Shown: positions 4,272 to 43,054 of the stretch, one piece after another
Position numbering within the stretch: position 1 is the stretch's first letter
Layout of the letters: every line of letters starts with the position of its first letter
Origin: a virus
Virus record (IMG/VR): IMGVR_UViG_3300042527_000430
Span: 1-43,179 of that record
DNA length: 43,179 nt
Reading direction: 5' to 3' (one strand)
The notes under the pieces: generated by a model
The model's input: only the letters and a program-made list of their open reading frames with translations
Database searches by the model: none
What the model was told of the DNA's origin: nothing
Made by a program: the position numbers and the translations under genes

Positions 4272-4501
4272 TCACTCCACAAGAACTCCAGGCAGCCAGA
4301 GCAACTAAACGCGCTGCCGACCTTCAGCGACAAGCCGAAAGCCGGACGACCTACAAGGCCTGGACTATCCAACTGGCCATCGGATCTACCGGAGGAGCGT
4401 TAAACGTCGGAGTGGAGGCATCAAGGACCGGGGAATGTGACCGTTATTTCTCCAACCTGGGCGAAGCTGAGGCTTGGATTGATAAGAGGCCCGTGAAATA
4501 A
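4268..4501 (+). CDS. Hypothetical protein, 77 aa
   Basis: It is coupled to both neighbours (ATGA at 4268; TAATG at 4501). The first 25 residues form a charged helix and the rest (TYKAWTIQLAIGS...GGALNVGVEAS) looks like a small beta sheet. It directly precedes the putative initiator gene. Function unknown. Confidence 0.6.
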   Translation: MITPQELQAARATKRAADLQRQAESRTTYKAWTIQLAIGSTGGALNVGVEASRTGECDRYFSNLGEAEAWIDKRPVK

Positions 4502-5139
4502 TGGGGCGCATTTTCCACGTCAGGATCAACCTAGACGCCGTGTCGGCAGATTTAAACACCCTTGTCGATGACAGGGAACGAGGGGAATGGTTGCGCGGCT
4601 TTATGGCTGGCGCATCTGGTGGCGCTAATAGATTCGTAGATACATCACCAAGCTATCTTGGTTGGCATCATGGGGCATCTGCTAGGGGACACGCTGAGAA
4701 GTTCCACGAGAAGCAAGCCGAGTATGGCGCGAAGTCAGCCAAGGTCAGAGGTGAGAAGTACGGCACATCCCAACCCTCGAAGGTGGTTCGAACGACCCTC
4801 GAAGGTGGCTCGAACGACCCTCGAACTACCCTCGAACCAAACTCGAACCTATCCAATAATCCAATAATCCATAAAGAGAATAAACCAAAAACGAATAAAC
4901 CACGTAACCAGGATTCACCAGAGACTCAGTGCCTCAAGCGGCACTCGTTTCGGATCAAGGGCGGAACACTTGATAAAAAATATGCGCTCATGGAAGCTAT
5001 TAAAATTCTAGGCATCGAAGAGGCAGACCGTCAGTTAGGCGCAATGGTCGGTGTTTGGGCTGGTGACCTCCTCGCTAGAATAATTCCACCTCCACCGGCT
5101 CGCCCACAAGCCCCGCCGCTCAACCTGGACATGGTATGA
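4501..5139 (+). CDS. Putative replication initiator (lambda O-like organisation)
   Basis: The 212-residue protein lies directly upstream of a DnaB-type helicase, joined by an ATGA overlap. Three parts are visible: an N-terminal domain (about 1-90, with RERGEWLRGFMAGASGG and HAEKFHEKQAEYG), a low-complexity linker rich in Thr/Asn/Pro/Lys (about 92-140), and a C-terminal helical domain ending in a proline-rich tail. The linker DNA is seven 11-bp iterons followed by AT-rich repeats, as in lambda O, where the origin lies inside the initiator gene. By analogy the N-terminal part would bind iterons and the C-terminal part would recruit the helicase; this is inferred from layout, not from sequence similarity to O. 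Confidence 0.6.
   Translation: MGRIFHVRINLDAVSADLNTLVDDRERGEWLRGFMAGASGGANRFVDTSPSYLGWHHGASARGHAEKFHEKQAEYGAKSAKVRGEKYGTSQPSKVVRTTLEGGSNDPRTTLEPNSNLSNNPIIHKENKPKTNKPRNQDSPETQCLKRHSFRIKGGTLDKKYALMEAIKILGIEEADRQLGAMVGVWAGDLLARIIPPPPARPQAPPLNLDMV
4776..4852 (+). repeat. Seven 11-bp iterons, core YTCGAA
   Basis: Seven units of exactly 11 bp abut without gaps, each starting CTCGAA (TTCGAA in unit 2): 4776, 4787, 4798, 4809, 4820, 4831 and 4842. The 3' five bases vary (GGTGG, CGACC, TACC-type). The 11-bp spacing is close to one helical turn, so a protein would meet every site on the same DNA face. The array is intragenic, in the linker of the putative initiator. Confidence 0.85.
4853..4902 (+). 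other. AT-rich block beside iterons (putative unwinding element)
   Basis: Directly after the last iteron come two CCAATAAT units (4853-4868) and two GAATAAACCA units (4878-4887, 4893-4902) in strongly AT-rich, purine-biased DNA. In lambda and iteron plasmids the duplex-unwinding element adjoins the iterons in this way. Together with 4776-4852 this is the best candidate replication origin in the window. Confidence 0.6.
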
Positions 5140-6662
5140 CCGTCCTGACTGACACTCACGAAGCGATTAGCTTGCTTGTCCTGGGCGATGCTCTGGAAAG
5201 CGTAGAATCGCTCCACCTCCTGGCAGAGTCCTGCCCTGCCCCGTCTCACCGATTCTTCGCTGGCCAGCGGAACAAGATCCTATCGCTTGCCCTGGATGCC
5301 ATGGAGCGCGGCGAGATCCCCCACGACCAGGGTGCGGCACTGGAATACCTGAGCCGGATTACCTGGCATGACGCATTGGACCATCTTGCTGGCAAGCCTC
5401 TCGCCATGTCGGCAGGCAAGAGTCATGCAGATACGGCCATGGCTGCGATTCAGGCCGCTTCCCTGGTCATTGACGCGGCTGGCGCTCGTCTGGCTGGCTC
5501 AGGACTGACCTACGGACCTCCCAAGCGGGCCATTCGGATGCTGCGTCATCTGGCCGACCGTGTTACCCTGATCGACAAGCTGGCCAAGACGACTTCCGCC
5601 CTGGCCAAGGTCTCCGTGACCGAGGACGCCACCCCTCTCATCGCATCCCTTGCCGATCTGTTGCGCGATACGGGCACAACAGCGGGCGAACGGTCTTTAG
5701 GTGACTCCCTGGCTACCGCTCTCGATAATTCTGCCAAGGAGGCGGCTTTGCGCGCAATTGGCAAGGATCGGCCAGCTACATGGGGCCTGTCTTCGCTCGA
5801 CAGGCATCTACCATTGTCTAAGGGGAGGTTTTTTGTAGTCGGGGCTAGGCCAGGTGGAGGCAAGACCTCGTTGGCGATTCAGGCGGCACACAGCACTGCC
5901 AAGAATCTCGGTCGGCGCTCAGTGGCTTATTTGTCCCTGGAGATGTCATCCGAAGAACTGGCTACCGTCCTTGCCTGCCGGGACGCCAAGGTGCCACGGG
6001 ACAAGGTAGCGAACGCATGGGAAACGCTCTTAGAGGCTGATCGGCAGGCGTTGCATCAGTTGGCTAGGGAATGGCAAAAAAGTGGCTCCATGTGGCTCCG
6101 TGATTCGACCGCTGGACCTCAGACGGTAGCGCATGTCGGGGCTTGGATCCGTTCGCAACGGGCAAGACACGGGGCGCTTGAACTTGTGGTGATAGATTAC
6201 CTTGGACTCATCAAAGGATCAAACCCTAAGCAATTTCTCACCGATCGCACAACGGAAATCACTTCCACCCTCAAACAAATCGCTCTAGCTGAAGGCGTGG
6301 CAATCATTTTACTGAGCCAACTTACCCGTGAAGGTCGCAAGCCGCCACGTTCAGCAGATGGCAAAATTGAAGCCGACCCCGTTCCTCGTGTTGAGGATCT
6401 ATACGGCGGCGGATCAATCGAAGCCGATGCCGATGGCGTTGTTATGCTTCACCCCATAGATCGTGAAGGCTTGGAAAGAAGGGTTGATTGCATTATCGCA
6501 AAAAACCGGCGCGGACCTTTCCCGATTACGCTACCAATGTGGTTTTATGGCAAATGGCAGCATTTCCAGGATGCGGCGAGTGATGCGGATGTTTCGGAGG
6601 AGGTTCAAGAAAGAAAGAAGCGAATGGACGCGCCACCCAGCGAAACTGAAAACGTTTTTTAA
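5136..6662 (+). CDS. Replicative DNA helicase, DnaB type
   Basis: The 508-residue protein has a DnaB/RecA-fold C-terminal half: Walker A GARPGGGKTS at residues 236-245 (Lys243), YLSLEMSSEEL (H1a), LVVIDYLGLIKG (Walker B/H2), AIILLSQLTRE (H3) and IAKNRRGPF (H4, arginine-finger region). The N-terminal 200 residues are helical and probably include the hexamer collar. It would unwind DNA 5'-3' at the phage fork. No separate primase or polymerase is seen, so the phage presumably borrows the host replisome. ATGA overlap with the putative initiator supports the start. Confidence 0.9.
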   Translation: MTVLTDTHEAISLLVLGDALESVESLHLLAESCPAPSHRFFAGQRNKILSLALDAMERGEIPHDQGAALEYLSRITWHDALDHLAGKPLAMSAGKSHADTAMAAIQAASLVIDAAGARLAGSGLTYGPPKRAIRMLRHLADRVTLIDKLAKTTSALAKVSVTEDATPLIASLADLLRDTGTTAGERSLGDSLATALDNSAKEAALRAIGKDRPATWGLSSLDRHLPLSKGRFFVVGARPGGGKTSLAIQAAHSTAKNLGRRSVAYLSLEMSSEELATVLACRDAKVPRDKVANAWETLLEADRQALHQLAREWQKSGSMWLRDSTAGPQTVAHVGAWIRSQRARHGALELVVIDYLGLIKGSNPKQFLTDRTTEITSTLKQIALAEGVAIILLSQLTREGRKPPRSADGKIEADPVPRVEDLYGGGSIEADADGVVMLHPIDREGLERRVDCIIAKNRRGPFPITLPMWFYGKWQHFQDAASDADVSEEVQERKKRMDAPPSETENVF

Positions 6663-9281: not shown

Positions 9282-10661
9282 TTATCCGATTACGAGGATG
9301 CAGGTACGGACAGCCGTCTGTCTGAAGCTGTCAGCACCATTGAATGCTGGCCCATCCACTTCTACCTCCAGCATTGACAACCCCATGTTTTCAATCGTGC
9401 GCAAGAGGTAGTCTGCGGCTTTCTTTTCTGACCAATTCAGAGGCATAACCGAGACGAGCTTTCCCCCCGGCTTGAGCCATAAAAGCGCGTGCAATACGTG
9501 GGCGGGTGCTGCATCTCGCTCAAAAGGCGGATTCATCAAAACAACGTCAACCCGTGCATGTGGTCCGACCGGCAATTCATTCAGAAAGTCGGCTTGCTGA
9601 GAGACGACGCATTGCGCACCAGTGGGACGCACGAAGGTTGCCAAATAATCGGCCAGTTTCGGAACAATCTCAAATGCTTTGACAGACTTTGCCCCGGCCT
9701 CAAGTGCGGCTCTAACTAAGTCCCCCTTTCCTGCCGACGGTTCCAAGACTGCCTTACTCCGTAGGTCGCCCGCCTGTTCCAGCATGATTTGCACAACGCT
9801 AGCAGGAGTCGGGAAGAAACCGGGAAAGTCACAAGTGCGCAAGTCAGCCTCTGCCCGTTCCTTGGCTATCTTTTCAGCCGATGCAGCAACGGCGCGAGGG
9901 TCAAGCAGCCCGCGCAAAGCGACGTGATGCGCTTCCGTGTATTGCGCGTCCGTAGTTTCGACGTGATAGCCATGATAGCCATTTGAAACCGGGGTGGCCT
10001 TATAGATAGCGGCTTCCTCAGACCATTGGAACAGGTCGCTAATGGTAGCACCTGGCAATGGGTTCTGGCCATCTTTACTGGCGAGCACGAAAGCCTTGAG
10101 GATGTGCGCCTGTCGTTCCATGCGCTGGCCTTCCATCCGCTTGTGCATGGCTTGCGCGAGACGCTTGGCGGTATTCTGGAGACGATCAGCAAAGCATGCC
10201 TCGGCTTTAATGATGAGCTTATCGGCTTTCGCGCTGATCTTGGCAAGGTCGATGGTAGGGCTTGGCTTGGCTATCTGCGCCACTGCAACAGGTTGAGCCT
10301 CTTCCGTATCTTCCTCCCTTGTGATGGTGGGAGACTGATCGGGTGTCCAGCCTTCAATCGCGTCAGTTTGTTCGATGGCGAACACGCAAAAGCCCTTCTT
10401 GAACTTGGCCTTGCCCTTGCCCTTCACTTCGCCCGATTCTGTTTCCTGTGTCTGCCCATCACTGAAGGCCAAGAGGCGAGCGGCACACGCTTCCCCCTTG
10501 CGCACGCAACGACCGATCGCCAGCCATTGGCGGAAGGTGGAAAATGCGCCAGTGACAAAGCGCGGGTCGCTATCCATCGCGTCTATGAGCTTAGCGACAT
10601 TGCCGCCAGAGTATGGCTTGCCGGTGACTGCATTAATGGGGTTGACGATAGTTTGCAGCAT
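9282..10661 (-). CDS. ArdC-like N domain fused to adenine methyltransferase
   Basis: The 459-residue protein joins two known modules. Residues about 1-75 (NPINAVTGKPYSGGN...FSTFRQWLAIGRCVRKGE) match the ArdC-type N-terminal domain of anti-restriction proteins, which bind single-stranded DNA. Residues about 290-459 are a SAM-dependent N6-adenine methyltransferase: GFFPTP, LEPSAGKGD (motif I, 306-314) and NPPF (motif IV, 377-380). Between them is a helical linker. ATG 10661 is chosen because AAAAGG lies before it; ATG 10676 has no such site. It likely protects entering or replicating phage DNA from host restriction, inferred from the two domains. Confidence 0.8.
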   Translation of the reverse strand: MLQTIVNPINAVTGKPYSGGNVAKLIDAMDSDPRFVTGAFSTFRQWLAIGRCVRKGEACAARLLAFSDGQTQETESGEVKGKGKAKFKKGFCVFAIEQTDAIEGWTPDQSPTITREEDTEEAQPVAVAQIAKPSPTIDLAKISAKADKLIIKAEACFADRLQNTAKRLAQAMHKRMEGQRMERQAHILKAFVLASKDGQNPLPGATISDLFQWSEEAAIYKATPVSNGYHGYHVETTDAQYTEAHHVALRGLLDPRAVAASAEKIAKERAEADLRTCDFPGFFPTPASVVQIMLEQAGDLRSKAVLEPSAGKGDLVRAALEAGAKSVKAFEIVPKLADYLATFVRPTGAQCVVSQQADFLNELPVGPHARVDVVLMNPPFERDAAPAHVLHALLWLKPGGKLVSVMPLNWSEKKAADYLLRTIENMGLSMLEVEVDGPAFNGADSFRQTAVRTCILVIG

Positions 10662-10727
10662 GATTTGCCTTTTCATGGGCTTGCCGGTCGGTCACCGGTG
10701 GGACTGTCAGCGTTTGCTGATGCTGGG

Positions 10728-11544: not shown

Positions 11545-11640
11545 GGGATGGGAAATGGGTGGAGGGGGGGGGAATGGGGATTGGGTTCACAGCTCCACCC
11601 ACGGGCGGGTGGAATAATAAAACACCCACTGGCGGGTGGA
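11545..11640 (+). promoter_or_regulatory. G-rich tract and two tandem hairpins
   Basis: Six runs of three or more G lie within 41 nt (11545-11585), enough for a G-quadruplex. They are followed by two similar hairpins, TCCACCC/GGGTGGA (11594-11613) and CACCC/GGGTG (11623-11638), which form a 19-bp direct repeat with one mismatch. The segment sits in the gene-free region between divergent operons. Role unknown. Confidence 0.5.
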
Positions 11641-11942
11641 ACGATGCCATTCATCGATGCAATTGCATTATCAATAGGCATCATAATACAGCCACCCCCC
11701 ATGCATAATAATATGTAAAGCTGTAAGTCGTTGAATTGCATATATATAATGAGTTTTTAAGAAGTTACGTATTGCACATTATCTGACTTCATAATCCATA
11801 GTAGGTAATTCGAGCCTCGCCGTTCCCGCCTGGCCCGATCCCAACCCGGGGGTCCACCCCATTTGCGGTTATATATAATCTAGCCCCCCCTCTAAAAATT
11901 TCCTACCATTTCCAACCACTTTCATTCCATAGACTTACCGAG
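11641..11942. other. Gene-free AT-rich spacer
   Basis: No credible gene is seen on either strand: the open frames here have no ribosome sites and low-complexity translations. The segment holds AT-rich patches such as TATATATAAT (near 11742) and TTATATATAATC (near 11870) and C runs. It lies between the G-rich tract and the DnaA boxes. I can assign no function to it. Confidence 0.5.
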
Positions 11943-12014
11943 TTATCCACATAAAAAAGTTTTCCACATTGACAATTTTTGTCAGTCTGTCTAGAGTACG
12001 CGCACGCGCGCACA
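11943..12014 (+). promoter_or_regulatory. DnaA boxes, strong promoter with palindrome, Z-DNA tract
   Basis: A perfect DnaA box TTATCCACA (11943-11951) and a one-mismatch copy TTTTCCACA (11960-11968) adjoin TTGACA (11969-11974), 17 nt, then TAGAGT (11992-11997), a strong sigma-70 match. TGACAA-TTT-TTGTCA (11970-11984) is a perfect inverted repeat over the -35, a likely operator. Nineteen alternating purine/pyrimidine bases (11996-12014) follow. Transcription would run toward the terminase genes. Confidence 0.65.
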
Positions 12015-12460
12015 ATAGACGGTTGACGTGTTGAATTTTCGCACAACATGCCCAATAGCACATCCGCAGCAGTCGCCGTATCCTGACTACCACCCAGTAC
12101 GGTAAAAGCTCTCTAAGCGGTCACTGTTTCTCTGAGCGAGATTGGTGATTAGCACGTAAGGGGAGCACAGTATGCCGTGTGCGAGGCATCCCGATGACCC
12201 TAAAGGGTGGAGCGGCAATCCAGGAATGGACCCGTCCCGGCAGGTGAGGGATGCATTGACATGACGGACGCGGGAAGTGTAGCCCTGACCAACCAGGGGA
12301 AGCCGGTGGCGCTCAGACGCCGGATACCAAGTACACTGACCAAGGCCGTTGTGTTGCTAAGGGGAGGCTGGTAGCGGGATCTAGTGATCTCGCGAGAGGG
12401 GTGGGGTGGGTAGAAACACAAAGGGTCAGCAAGCATGAAAGTACAAGAATTTTAGGATAG
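12004..12460 (+). ncRNA. Candidate multi-helix structured RNA upstream of terminase
   Basis: The segment downstream of the strong promoter has no credible gene but many complementary arms: GCATCCC/GGGATGC (12186-12192, 12248-12254) enclosing an ACCC-TAAA-GGGT hairpin; AGTGTA/TACACT (12276-12281, 12332-12337) enclosing two hairpins, CCCTG/CAGGG (12283-12298) and GGCG/CGCC (12308-12321), as a three-way junction; and an eight-pair hairpin GCGGGATC/GATCTCGC (12374-12393). No U-rich terminator separates it from the gene at 12466, so it could be a long leader or a processed RNA. I do not recognise a known RNA family. Confidence 0.5.
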
Positions 12461-12465
12461 ATTCT

Positions 12466-12681
12466 ATGACCATTAAACGCTATCTCGTGTTTGCCGGTCC
12501 CAGATATTACCCAGAAGGTGGATGGGGCGATTTCAGGAACGCCTACGACACACTTGAAGAGGCAATTGCTTTCAGTTCCCTTATGCCAACGGCAGACTAC
12601 TGGACGCATATAATCGACCTACAGGGGCTATGTGAAATTCAAGGTCTGCCCAATAGGCCAGTTGAGGAAGACCGTTCATGA
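12466..12681 (+). CDS. Hypothetical phage protein, 71 aa
   Basis: First gene of the structural operon. The start MTIKRYLVFAGPRYYPEGGW followed by DFRNAYDTLEEAIAF matches a small protein type common in phage genomes near terminase or structural genes; its role is not known. The site before the ATG (AGGATAG) is moderate. It is coupled to the next gene by ATGA. Confidence 0.65.
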   Translation: MTIKRYLVFAGPRYYPEGGWGDFRNAYDTLEEAIAFSSLMPTADYWTHIIDLQGLCEIQGLPNRPVEEDRS

Positions 12682-14777: not shown

Positions 14778-17180
14778 ATGTCCCTTGATCCCGTTGGTAC
14801 TGGCAACGCGATTACGCCCTCCAGTGGGTCGTTGACTTCCGGACGAATTCCGATTGCCACGGGCTTACTGACTCTCGGCGATACCTTTCTAGGCAGCACG
14901 GTTTCCGAAAACGTTCTTACCTTTACCGGCACCCTCACTGCGCTTCGCACGGTGACATTTCAGGATGCGACCGGAACCGTTCCGCTTCTAGAAGTCGGCA
15001 GCACATACACTGGAGCCAACACATTTCAAAACTCCAGTGGCGTCACCACGCGCCAAACCGCAACTCAGGACGGTGTTGCCCTCGTTGGCCGTGCTGGCGG
15101 AACTTCGTCGTTTACCGCGACGATTACCCCGACGACCCTGACTGCATCGCGTACCCTGACCGTCCCCGATGCATCAGGAACCATCGCGCTTACATCGCAA
15201 CTTTCCAATACGATTGGATGGAACAGAGCATTACAAGAGTTTTCAAGCCCATTTACGCAAATAGGCGGCTACACTTGGACATCAAGAACATTACCATCTT
15301 CTTCTGATTGGTTTTCGGTTTGTTACGGAAACGGAATATTTGTCGCTATTGCAACAGGGTCAACTGCAGCAGCCACTTCACCGGATGGTGTAACATGGAC
15401 CGCAAGAACGCTTCCCTCGTCATCGACATGGGCATCAGTTTGTTACGGAAACGGCGTATTTGTCGCTATTGCCAGCACCACAATAGCAGCCACTTCACCA
15501 GATGGAATAACGTGGACCGCTAGAACACTTCCAACATCAACAGGTTGGCGATCGGTTTGTTTTGGTAACGGCACGTTTGTAGCCATTTCGCAGACTAGCG
15601 GAACAATTGCCGCTACTTCTACCGATGGAATTACCTGGACTCAAAGAACGCTCCCAGCAACAGCATCATGGTGGTCTGTCGTATACGGAAACGGCGTATT
15701 TGTCGCTATTGCATTTTCAAGTTCTTCCGCCGCCATATCTTCAGATGGAATTACTTGGACTTTAACAACGCTTCCGTCGTCCAGTGGATGGTATTCAGTT
15801 TGTTACGGTAATGGATTGTTTGTTGCGGTGTCTAGTACCTCTGGAACCATAGCAGCCACATCGCCAAATGGCACAAATTGGACTACAAGGACATTGTCTG
15901 CAACCGCAAATTGGGTTTCTGTCTGCTATGGAAATGGGCTGTTTGTAGCAGTTGCCGGTAGCGGTGTTACAACCGCATCAAGCTCACCAGACGGAATAAC
16001 GTGGACCGCGAGGACTCTATCGTCTGCACAGGCATGGAACTCCAACTGTTATGGTAATGGAGTATTTGTAACGGTAGCTCAGGGCGGATCGAATACCGCT
16101 AGCACTTCAGGCGGAGCCCTCGCCCTTTCCGGTGACTTCACCGCCCCGCGTACCCATACCGTCCAAGACGCCACCGGCACCATCCCCCTCATCGAAGTCC
16201 AGCCATGCGCCAGCTTCCAAAACAAGCTGATCAATCCGCGTTTTGATATTTGGCAGCGCGGGACGAGCTTTGCGGCAATCGCAACCAATAGCTATCACGC
16301 CGATCGATGGACGCAAAACTTCGATGGAACCGGCGTAGCGACTATCAGCCGTCAGGCTCACACGCTGGGTGCTATCCCAACCGAGCCCGAGTACTTCCTG
16401 CGCTATCAGGTGACGAGTGCCGGGGCAGGCGGTACGTTTAGAAATCTCATTCAAGCCATTGAATCAGTGCGAACTTTGGCGGGTAAGCGTGTACAAGTCA
16501 CTTTTTGGGCAAAGGCTGACGCGGCTCGCAATGTCCTGCCGCAGTTTGCACAGGTTTTCGGCACTGGCGGCACTCCTTCTGGAGCCGTGTTCGCAAACGG
16601 AACAACCTGCGCACTGACGACCTCGTGGCAGCAATTCACCCAGACGATCACACTTCCATCAATCAGCGGTAAGACGGTCGGCACAAACCGCGACGACTAT
16701 CTGGGGCTTCTGCTGAATCTGCCTCTCAACACGACATGCACGATCGACTTTTCAGAAGTAGAAGTTAAAGAAGTTGCCCCATCCGGTCAGGTCAATACGC
16801 CGATGGAGATTCGGCCACCGCAGGTCGAGTTGGCTTTGTGCAAAAGGTATTACCGCCGAATCAATAGTACTGACGGACTTTTCCAGCCATTCGGATACGG
16901 CCTTGCAGCAACTACTGCCATTGTGGATGTGCTGATTCCGCCAGATGTCGAAATGCGTGCAAGCCCTACTTTGAGCTTCTCAGCCCTTGCTGATTTTAAC
17001 GTCAGCGATTCGAGCACGATTACGGCTGTCACCAGCATTAGTCTCAGCGGGACACAAGCAGGCCGACAATTGCAACAAGTGCAAATGAACACTGGCGGCG
17101 GACTTACTCAATTTCGCTCGATGCGACTTGAAGCGGCAAATCGTCTAACGGCTTGGCTGGCATTCTCGGCGGAATTATGA
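14778..17180 (+). CDS. Tail fibre with seven-unit beta-propeller insert
   Basis: The 800-residue protein has four parts: an N-terminal anchor and beta repeats of the RTLTVPDASGTIAL type (about 1-145); seven units of about 40 residues from 165 to 446, each built on TWTxRTLPSSxxWxSVCYGNGxFVAIA...SPDG, a pattern expected for a seven-bladed propeller; another RTHTVQDATGTIPL beta repeat; and a C-terminal domain from about 480 (NKLINPRFDIWQRGTSF...YHADRW) like the jelly-roll receptor-binding ends of other phage fibres. The propeller DNA (15240-16100) is AT-richer than its flanks and splits two copies of the beta repeat, suggesting acquisition. It probably binds the host surface. Confidence 0.8.
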   Translation: MSLDPVGTGNAITPSSGSLTSGRIPIATGLLTLGDTFLGSTVSENVLTFTGTLTALRTVTFQDATGTVPLLEVGSTYTGANTFQNSSGVTTRQTATQDGVALVGRAGGTSSFTATITPTTLTASRTLTVPDASGTIALTSQLSNTIGWNRALQEFSSPFTQIGGYTWTSRTLPSSSDWFSVCYGNGIFVAIATGSTAAATSPDGVTWTARTLPSSSTWASVCYGNGVFVAIASTTIAATSPDGITWTARTLPTSTGWRSVCFGNGTFVAISQTSGTIAATSTDGITWTQRTLPATASWWSVVYGNGVFVAIAFSSSSAAISSDGITWTLTTLPSSSGWYSVCYGNGLFVAVSSTSGTIAATSPNGTNWTTRTLSATANWVSVCYGNGLFVAVAGSGVTTASSSPDGITWTARTLSSAQAWNSNCYGNGVFVTVAQGGSNTASTSGGALALSGDFTAPRTHTVQDATGTIPLIEVQPCASFQNKLINPRFDIWQRGTSFAAIATNSYHADRWTQNFDGTGVATISRQAHTLGAIPTEPEYFLRYQVTSAGAGGTFRNLIQAIESVRTLAGKRVQVTFWAKADAARNVLPQFAQVFGTGGTPSGAVFANGTTCALTTSWQQFTQTITLPSISGKTVGTNRDDYLGLLLNLPLNTTCTIDFSEVEVKEVAPSGQVNTPMEIRPPQVELALCKRYYRRINSTDGLFQPFGYGLAATTAIVDVLIPPDVEMRASPTLSFSALADFNVSDSSTITAVTSISLSGTQAGRQLQQVQMNTGGGLTQFRSMRLEAANRLTAWLAFSAEL

Positions 17181-42179: not shown

Positions 42180-42998
42180 TTAGCCCTTCCGCTTCTTAGT
42201 GGCCTTCTTTGCCATCTTTTTGACCGCCGATTTGCGCTTGGCTTTTGTCTTACTGATAACTACCTGCGCGGCCTCCTTTGCCTTTTCTAAGTCTTCTGCG
42301 GTGTCATTCTCCACCGACAAAAGCATTAGGGCGGTGTCTAGCGCCAGGGTTCGCGTTTTGCGGTAGATGGCTTCATTGCAATCAATCCATGCACGTAGTT
42401 CGTCTGGCGTGCCATTGAAGCAGCCGCAGAAGATGCGCGTCGTCTTCTCGGCCTGTACGGCCAGCAGATTGCGACCGCAGACGCCGTGTCCGGTGAACTG
42501 GACTGAGGCGGTGGATAGGATTTTGCCGTCATCGCCCAGGTTCGCGTCGCCCAGGTACGCGCCGCCCAGGCACGCGTCGCCCAGGTACGCGCCGCGCAGG
42601 CACGCGCCGCGCAGGCACGCGCCGCGCAGGTTCGCGCCGCCCAGGTTCGCGTCGCCCAGGTACGCGTCGCCCAGGTACGCGTCGCCCAGGCACGCGCCGC
42701 GCAGGTTCGCGTCGCCCAGGCACGCGCCGCGCAGGCACGCGCCGCGCAGGTTCGCGTCGCCCAGGTACGCGCCGCGCAGGTTCGCGCCGCGCAGGCACGC
42801 GCCGCGCAGGCACGCGCCGCGCAGGTTCGCGTCGCCCAGGTACGCGTCGCCCAGGTACGCGTCGCCCAGGTACGCGCCAGACTCCACCGCCTCTACCAGC
42901 GTATCTTTGATGGTCTTGGCCGCGTTCGATTTATATATCACCGAGTTGTCGTATCGGTTTCTGATTTCGTTCGGCAAGGATTGGGAGGTGTCGGTCAT
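42180..42998 (-). CDS. Pentapeptide-repeat protein with basic tail
   Basis: ATG 42996-42998 with an AAGG 8 nt upstream is chosen; the longer ATG at 43031 overlaps the -10 of the promoter. The 272-residue protein has 23 perfect pentapeptides (AYLGD, ANLRG, ACLRG, ACLGD and variants) at about residues 42-156, expected to form a right-handed quadrilateral helix, then a domain with GHGVCGRN and AWIDCNEAIYRKTR, and a lysine-rich end (KTKAKRKSAVKKMAKKATKK). Pentapeptide proteins can mimic DNA and inhibit gyrase; the basic tail here is unlike that, so the role is open. Confidence 0.75.
   Translation of the reverse strand: MTDTSQSLPNEIRNRYDNSVIYKSNAAKTIKDTLVEAVESGAYLGDAYLGDAYLGDANLRGACLRGACLRGANLRGAYLGDANLRGACLRGACLGDANLRGACLGDAYLGDAYLGDANLGGANLRGACLRGACLRGAYLGDACLGGAYLGDANLGDDGKILSTASVQFTGHGVCGRNLLAVQAEKTTRIFCGCFNGTPDELRAWIDCNEAIYRKTRTLALDTALMLLSVENDTAEDLEKAKEAAQVVISKTKAKRKSAVKKMAKKATKKRKG
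42531..42875 (-). repeat. 15-bp minisatellite encoding 23 pentapeptides
   Basis: Twenty-three units of 15 bp run without interruption. Units differ almost only in codon 2 (TGC, TAC or AAC) and in codons 4-5 (CGC GGC or GGC GAC), while the synonymous positions are identical, showing recent expansion or gene conversion. Read length may affect copy number in assembly. Confidence 0.9.
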
Positions 42999-43026
42999 TT
43001 GCTGGCCTTGGGTGGGTGATGGGCGG

Positions 43027-43054
43027 AACATAGCAACACCATGCGCATGGTCAA
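43027..43054 (-). promoter_or_regulatory. Minus-strand early promoter with palindromic operator
   Basis: On the minus strand TTGACC (43049-43054) is followed after 16 nt by TATGTT (43027-43032). The perfect palindrome ACCATGCGCATGGT (43038-43051) fills the spacer and the end of the -35. It matches the operator at 199-212 at 13 of 14 positions. Confidence 0.6.

Follow-up and report, generated by a model that had tools for sequence, protein, structure and literature searches.

Phage replication origins that lie inside a gene have biochemical precedents in lambda O (PMC7466680) and in SPP1 (PMC6316719), where gene 38 contains oriL and a second origin, oriR, lies some 13 kb from it. Lambda oriO, phi80 gene 15 and P22 gene 18 share a layout in which the initiator gene contains the origin, with iterons followed by AT-rich DNA; in P22 and lambda respectively the gene directly downstream, encoding the helicase gp12 or the loader P, overlaps it by 4 bp. 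Six 11-bp repeats (TGTCCAACGGA) within gene 18 of Salmonella phage L, beside a DnaB gene, have been reported as a likely origin (PMC8022706; MW013503). As we read them, these repeats form two gapless blocks of three in a common 11-bp register with AT-rich DNA on their 3′ side. In the open literature (subscription reviews lay outside the scope of the search) we found no report of 11-bp iterons within phage genes other than that on phage L. The rep gene (orf16) of Lactococcus phage Tuc2009, annotated as "contains origin of replication", holds further repeats of this length.

The window analysed here is one strand of the IMG/VR virus record IMGVR_UViG_3300042527_000430, positions 1 to 43,179, in its entirety. 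Approximately 127 bases are identical at its start and end, indicating a circular assembly of ~43,052 bp. We identified at 4773-4902 what is very probably a lambda/P22-style replication origin located within the gene of its own initiator, which would bind a set of iterons, whereupon an adjacent AT-rich tract would open and the phage DnaB be loaded. The gene, at 4501-5139 on the + strand, encodes 212 amino acids and starts in a TAATG overlap with the gene preceding it; its proposed role as the replication initiator derives from its position, its iterons and its relatives. It can be subdivided approximately into an N-part (aa 1-90), a part carrying the iterons and AT-rich tract (aa 91-134), for which "linker" is a fair, if putative, label, and a C-part (aa 135-212). 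The overlap with a DnaB-type helicase gene proposed in an earlier note on this DNA was borne out: the gene at 5136-6662 (+ strand) shares 4 bp (ATGA) with the initiator gene, and its product matches DnaB_C (2.1e-37), the C-terminal ATPase domain of DnaB, as well as PHROG 19 (8e-47) and solved DnaB structures (3e-18).

The 4501-5139 product has no match in Pfam, PHROG or PDB and no recognisable DNA-binding domain. Protein searches for homologues returned none from phage records and a single near-identical sibling from IMG/VR, and a profile search gave one distant match; the relatives found number only two, one of which is 94 % identical. Comparisons by phmmer with lambda O, phi80 gp15, P22 gp18, L gp18 and Tuc2009 rep were all non-significant, in agreement with the earlier note, which had seen no obvious similarity to lambda O, and by sequence the protein does not appear to be a detectable member of the lambda O family. 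Its AlphaFold2 model (pLDDT 32) is unusable and the fold is not readable from it. The initiator is therefore an orphan in the collections searched and may, as judged from its sequence, represent a new family.

Seven gapless 11-bp iterons with a YTCGAA core occupy 4773-4849 on the + strand (4776-4852 when started at YTCGAA), their TCGAA cores falling at 4777 + 11k. The units are, in order, ACCCTCGAAGG, TGGTTCGAACG, ACCCTCGAAGG, TGGCTCGAACG, ACCCTCGAACT, ACCCTCGAACC and AAACTCGAACC. This is the sole 11-bp run of more than three copies in the 43 kb, and in 40 dinucleotide shuffles no 5-mer, at whatever period between 5 and 24, formed a run of more than three copies. We recoded the same protein synonymously 20,000 times using the codon usage of the genome; the longest phased TCGAA run obtained was four, reached three times, against the seven of the real gene, and the protein sequence thus does not account for the array. 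Repeat analysis, shuffles and recoding together confirm that the array, first described in the earlier note, is real and in excess of both chance and codon needs.

A sibling phage in IMG/VR (3300017754_002612), the only near relative found, shares 94 % protein identity in the initiator. Between the two phages 43 of 270 bp have changed in the region coding for the N-part and 6 of 81 bases in the iteron region, the latter affecting three codons synonymously and three non-synonymously. All seven iterons nevertheless keep their register, and 34 of the 35 core bases are unchanged. The same data bear on the reading that the repeats are nothing other than a low-complexity coding linker (SNxxRTxLEP-like) with no function at the DNA level. 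The linker that the repeats encode is indeed polar and repetitive; however, 11 is not divisible by 3 and the amino acid repeat therefore recurs only every 33 bp, synonymous recodings yield at most four phased cores, and the sibling carries three amino acid changes yet has its cores almost intact. We consider this explanation extremely improbable.

Immediately downstream of the iterons lies an AT-rich tract (4851-4902, + strand), the proposed unwinding element, with direct repeats and low duplex stability. Its G+C content is 27 %, against ~55 % for the genome, and it falls within the least stable 0.29 % of the genome's 52-bp windows. An 8-bp repeat, ATCCAATA, is present twice, at 4851 and 4859, and a 15-bp repeat twice, at 4873 and 4888. 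The two 8-bp and two 10-bp AT-rich repeats initially described here are therefore both present, the 10-mer GAATAAACCA being contained within the 15-bp repeats. In the sibling there is one change in 51 bp of this tract, although conservation here is weak evidence, since the two phages are nearly identical from the AT-rich tract onward and this may reflect recent common descent.

We infer from this arrangement that 4773-4902 is where the initiator binds, the duplex opens, the helicase is loaded and replication starts. The N-part of the initiator would bind the seven iterons with roughly one monomer or half-site to each turn of the helix, all on the same face of the DNA. The nucleoprotein complex thus formed would melt the AT-rich tract, and the C-part would recruit the phage's own DnaB onto the opened strands. 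GC skew follows the gene strand and gives no pointer to 4.8 kb. Direct repeats are commonly the binding sites of autoregulating proteins, and the helicase gene lies downstream of the array, so the iterons might instead form an operator through which the protein regulates transcription of its own gene and of the helicase, rather than a start site of replication. Against this, the array is situated about 270 bp inside the gene and beside a tract prone to melting, and annotated initiator genes, as well as Tuc2009 rep with its annotated origin, show this layout too; an operator is accordingly an unlikely reading of the array.

The in-gene origin gains a further point of comparison from a distant relative, 3300032280_000504 (L042/L435), found through its repeats. 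It carries nine 11-bp iterons (YTCGAACAYAY-like) and shares with the window initiator a stretch preceding the linker, RGxxExF...SxxxRxxKYGTxQP; its initiator gene likewise overlaps a DnaB gene by 4 bp. The relative differs in having a longer N-terminal region, for which we found no phage match, and a C-part that matches replisome-organizer and DnaD-like loader families. The shared motif and layout, in combination with this recognisable C-part, link the window's orphan initiator to a replication protein that can be recognised as such. In the window the common stretch, RGHAEKFHEKQAEYGAKSAKVRGEKYGTSQP, is encoded at 4684-4776 (+ strand), just 5′ of the iterons, and could, speculatively, be a candidate iteron-binding element. 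The order of N-part, iterons, AT-rich DNA, C-part and helicase originally proposed for the locus is supported by the sibling, by this distant relative and by the occurrence of TCGAA/11-bp arrays in genes that PHROG annotates as replication initiation, DnaD-like loader or primosomal.

Two DnaA-box-like sites, TTATCCACA (11943) and TTTTCCACA (11960), lie 17 bp apart on the + strand in non-coding DNA (11943-11968); the earlier note had given the vicinity of 11943 as an example of where a replication peak might instead be found. AT-rich DNA lies nearby and both sites are kept in the sibling, and two origins in one phage genome have a precedent in SPP1 (PMC6316719). The main origin might thus be DnaA-dependent and located in the non-coding region near 11.94 kb, with the in-gene iterons serving another purpose or a second, SPP1-like origin. 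However, the three DnaA-box matches in the window compare with 1.8 expected by chance, the 11.94-kb sites have neither an initiator gene nor a repeat array beside them, and an origin there would leave seven phased repeats in a helicase-coupled gene unexplained. We therefore regard a main origin at 11.94 kb as improbable, somewhat less so than an operator, and retain 4773-4902 as the favoured location; the conserved sites at 11943 and 11960, 7 kb from the iterons, could be a second origin element. The surrounding non-coding region (11640-12480) is 94 % identical in the sibling, lies between oppositely oriented gene blocks and has no Rfam match; Rfam and tRNA searches gave nothing.

Tandem repeats at 42533-42878 were also considered as a rival origin and were rejected as part of a pentapeptide-repeat protein (AYLGDANLRGA...), encoded on the - strand at 42180-43031 with 23 copies of a 15-bp tandem repeat. 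A 117-bp tandem repeat of 3.3 copies is present at 15315-15713; its length is a multiple of 3 and it is presumably coding. Separately, an ArdC-like antirestriction N-domain is fused to a DNA methyltransferase domain at 9282-10676 (- strand).

Four copies of TCGAA at 11-bp spacing were found at 58 viral loci. By PHROG scan 20 of these lie in replication initiation, DnaD-like helicase loader, primosomal (DUF1376) or replisome-organizer genes, the PHROG annotations that name such neighbours "initiators" being themselves predictions. Three more loci (L013, L044 and L055) directly match one of these replication families and another (L057) carries the same gene as L014, bringing initiator-type genes to about 24 of the 58. 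Control searches with the same core gave 12 loci at 10-bp spacing, none initiator-like on inspection, and 105 loci at 12-bp spacing, of which the ten inspected were mostly coding repeats, with one DUF1376-like protein. As a marker in bacterial genomes the TCGAA/11-bp array was rejected: at least 118 matches were obtained, mostly intergenic or in spurious frames, with only two in phage initiators. Since the bacterial matches are mostly unrelated, the pattern is informative in phages and not in chromosomes. Arrays of TCGAANNNNNN with an 11-bp period are common in bacterial genomes, many of them Bacteroidota (L181-L260), as apparently non-coding tandem repeats; some form inverted pairs ~44 bp apart and are unrelated to initiators.

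To avoid selecting for repeats, initiators for a survey of period 11 were collected by protein family. Among prophage initiators 12 of 49 contain period 11 (at least three copies of a 5-mer), where codon shuffles expect about none. In a non-redundant viral family related to phrog_1408/2149 (family A) the period is found in 12 of 32 initiators, a proportion that may run somewhat high because the profile was seeded with four array-bearing members; the DNA flanking these genes (145 kb) contains no period-11 run. Autocorrelation in the family-A linkers peaks at 11 and 22, persists at 11 bp in linkers lacking TCGA cores and is absent from the N-domain and the region following the linker. A second, phrog_1701-like family (family B) includes 39 period-11 genes among those parsed, many of them near-duplicates, with the iteron consensus AAGCCCCTTCG; apart from 11, all strong periods in this family are multiples of 3. 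Core sequences vary even within one family, and include TTCGA, ACTCA, AATCA, GACTC, AAGTA (13 copies) and TTCTT, as expected where sites co-evolve with the protein that binds them. A confident structural model of one family-A initiator (L041, pLDDT 78), a member of another family than the window initiator, shows a winged helix at the N-terminus, disorder at the iterons and helices in the C-part; the solved structures that match it best are winged-helix regulators, with weak E-values.

Two further repeat types accompany these arrays. Phased 5-bp repeats (GGAAGGGAAG..., AGAATAGAAT...) lie directly 3′ of the iterons in 13 of 32 family-A initiators; carriers include L451, L455, L462, L474, L482, L487, L502, L507, L508, L510, L512 and L516. 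This 5-bp period is not codon-driven and is absent from the 145 kb of flanking DNA. In Tuc2009 rep (L429, about 4480-4560) the pentamer GGATAGGATA is likewise located 3′ of the iterons. The phased pentamers are possibly an unwinding or loading element. In family B a second 11-bp TCGAA array (ETGLGIEGASKGLRSCIE) is embedded in the codons of the winged helix, at about codons 60-73 and upstream of the linker iterons, in L013, L018, L021, L044, L047 and L055.

The families with such arrays are unrelated, and comprise replication-initiation wHTH proteins, DnaD-like loaders, DUF1376 proteins, DUF6291-like proteins and the orphan of the window. We put forward, with the balance of probability even, that gapless one-turn (11-bp) linker iterons with core variation within families are a general and largely unrecognised design of phage initiators, whether shared or convergent, supplemented in one family by 3′ phased pentamers (GGAAG/AGAAT/GGATA), and that the window exemplifies this design with a new initiator family and a DnaB of its own. 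The 11-bp phased linker array appears to be a signature of phage initiators that is independent of their sequence, and could help to locate origins and identify initiators in the many phages without recognisable replication homologues. The variation of cores and N-domains within one family, with the one-turn geometry kept, offers a testable system for changes in origin specificity.

The window locus is a clear further example, with an orphan initiator, of a phage origin probably hidden in an initiator gene, and its likeness to the described systems is of two kinds. With lambda oriO, phi80 gene 15 and P22 gene 18 it shares direct repeats inside the initiator gene, adjacent meltable AT-rich DNA and a gene directly downstream with a 4-bp overlap, in this case for a DnaB-type helicase as for P22 gp12. 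Its array, however, is not of the lambda type, in which iterons of about 18 bp are spaced 20-24 bp apart; the distance from one iteron start to the next is 20-24 bp in lambda and 20-21 bp in phi80, or some two turns of the helix, as against 11 bp in the window. Exact 11-bp tandem repeats in an initiator linker are instead the arrangement of phage L and Tuc2009. Phage L (genes 18 and 12) resembles the window in its in-gene 11-bp repeats, in the AT-rich DNA 3′ of them and in the DnaB-type helicase gene that comes next, and differs in its core and in having two blocks of three repeats rather than one of seven; its origin is, as in the window, a prediction only. Tuc2009 rep has four gapless in-gene 11-bp iterons with a CAACC core, and differs in belonging to the DnaD-like loader family, in lacking a DnaB gene directly downstream and in having purine-rich GGATA pentamers after the iterons where the window has an A/C-rich tract. 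The 11-bp period differs from the longer lambda iterons, as the earlier note had it, but its suggestion that the period could define a new initiator family is not supported, as phage L, Tuc2009 rep and several unrelated families share it. A new family remains a possibility that comes from the orphan protein and not from the spacing of its iterons. With phage L published and Tuc2009 rep as a precedent, the 11-bp period alone is no novelty; what is added here is its breadth, period 11 leading among the non-codon periods in the linkers of several unrelated initiator families.
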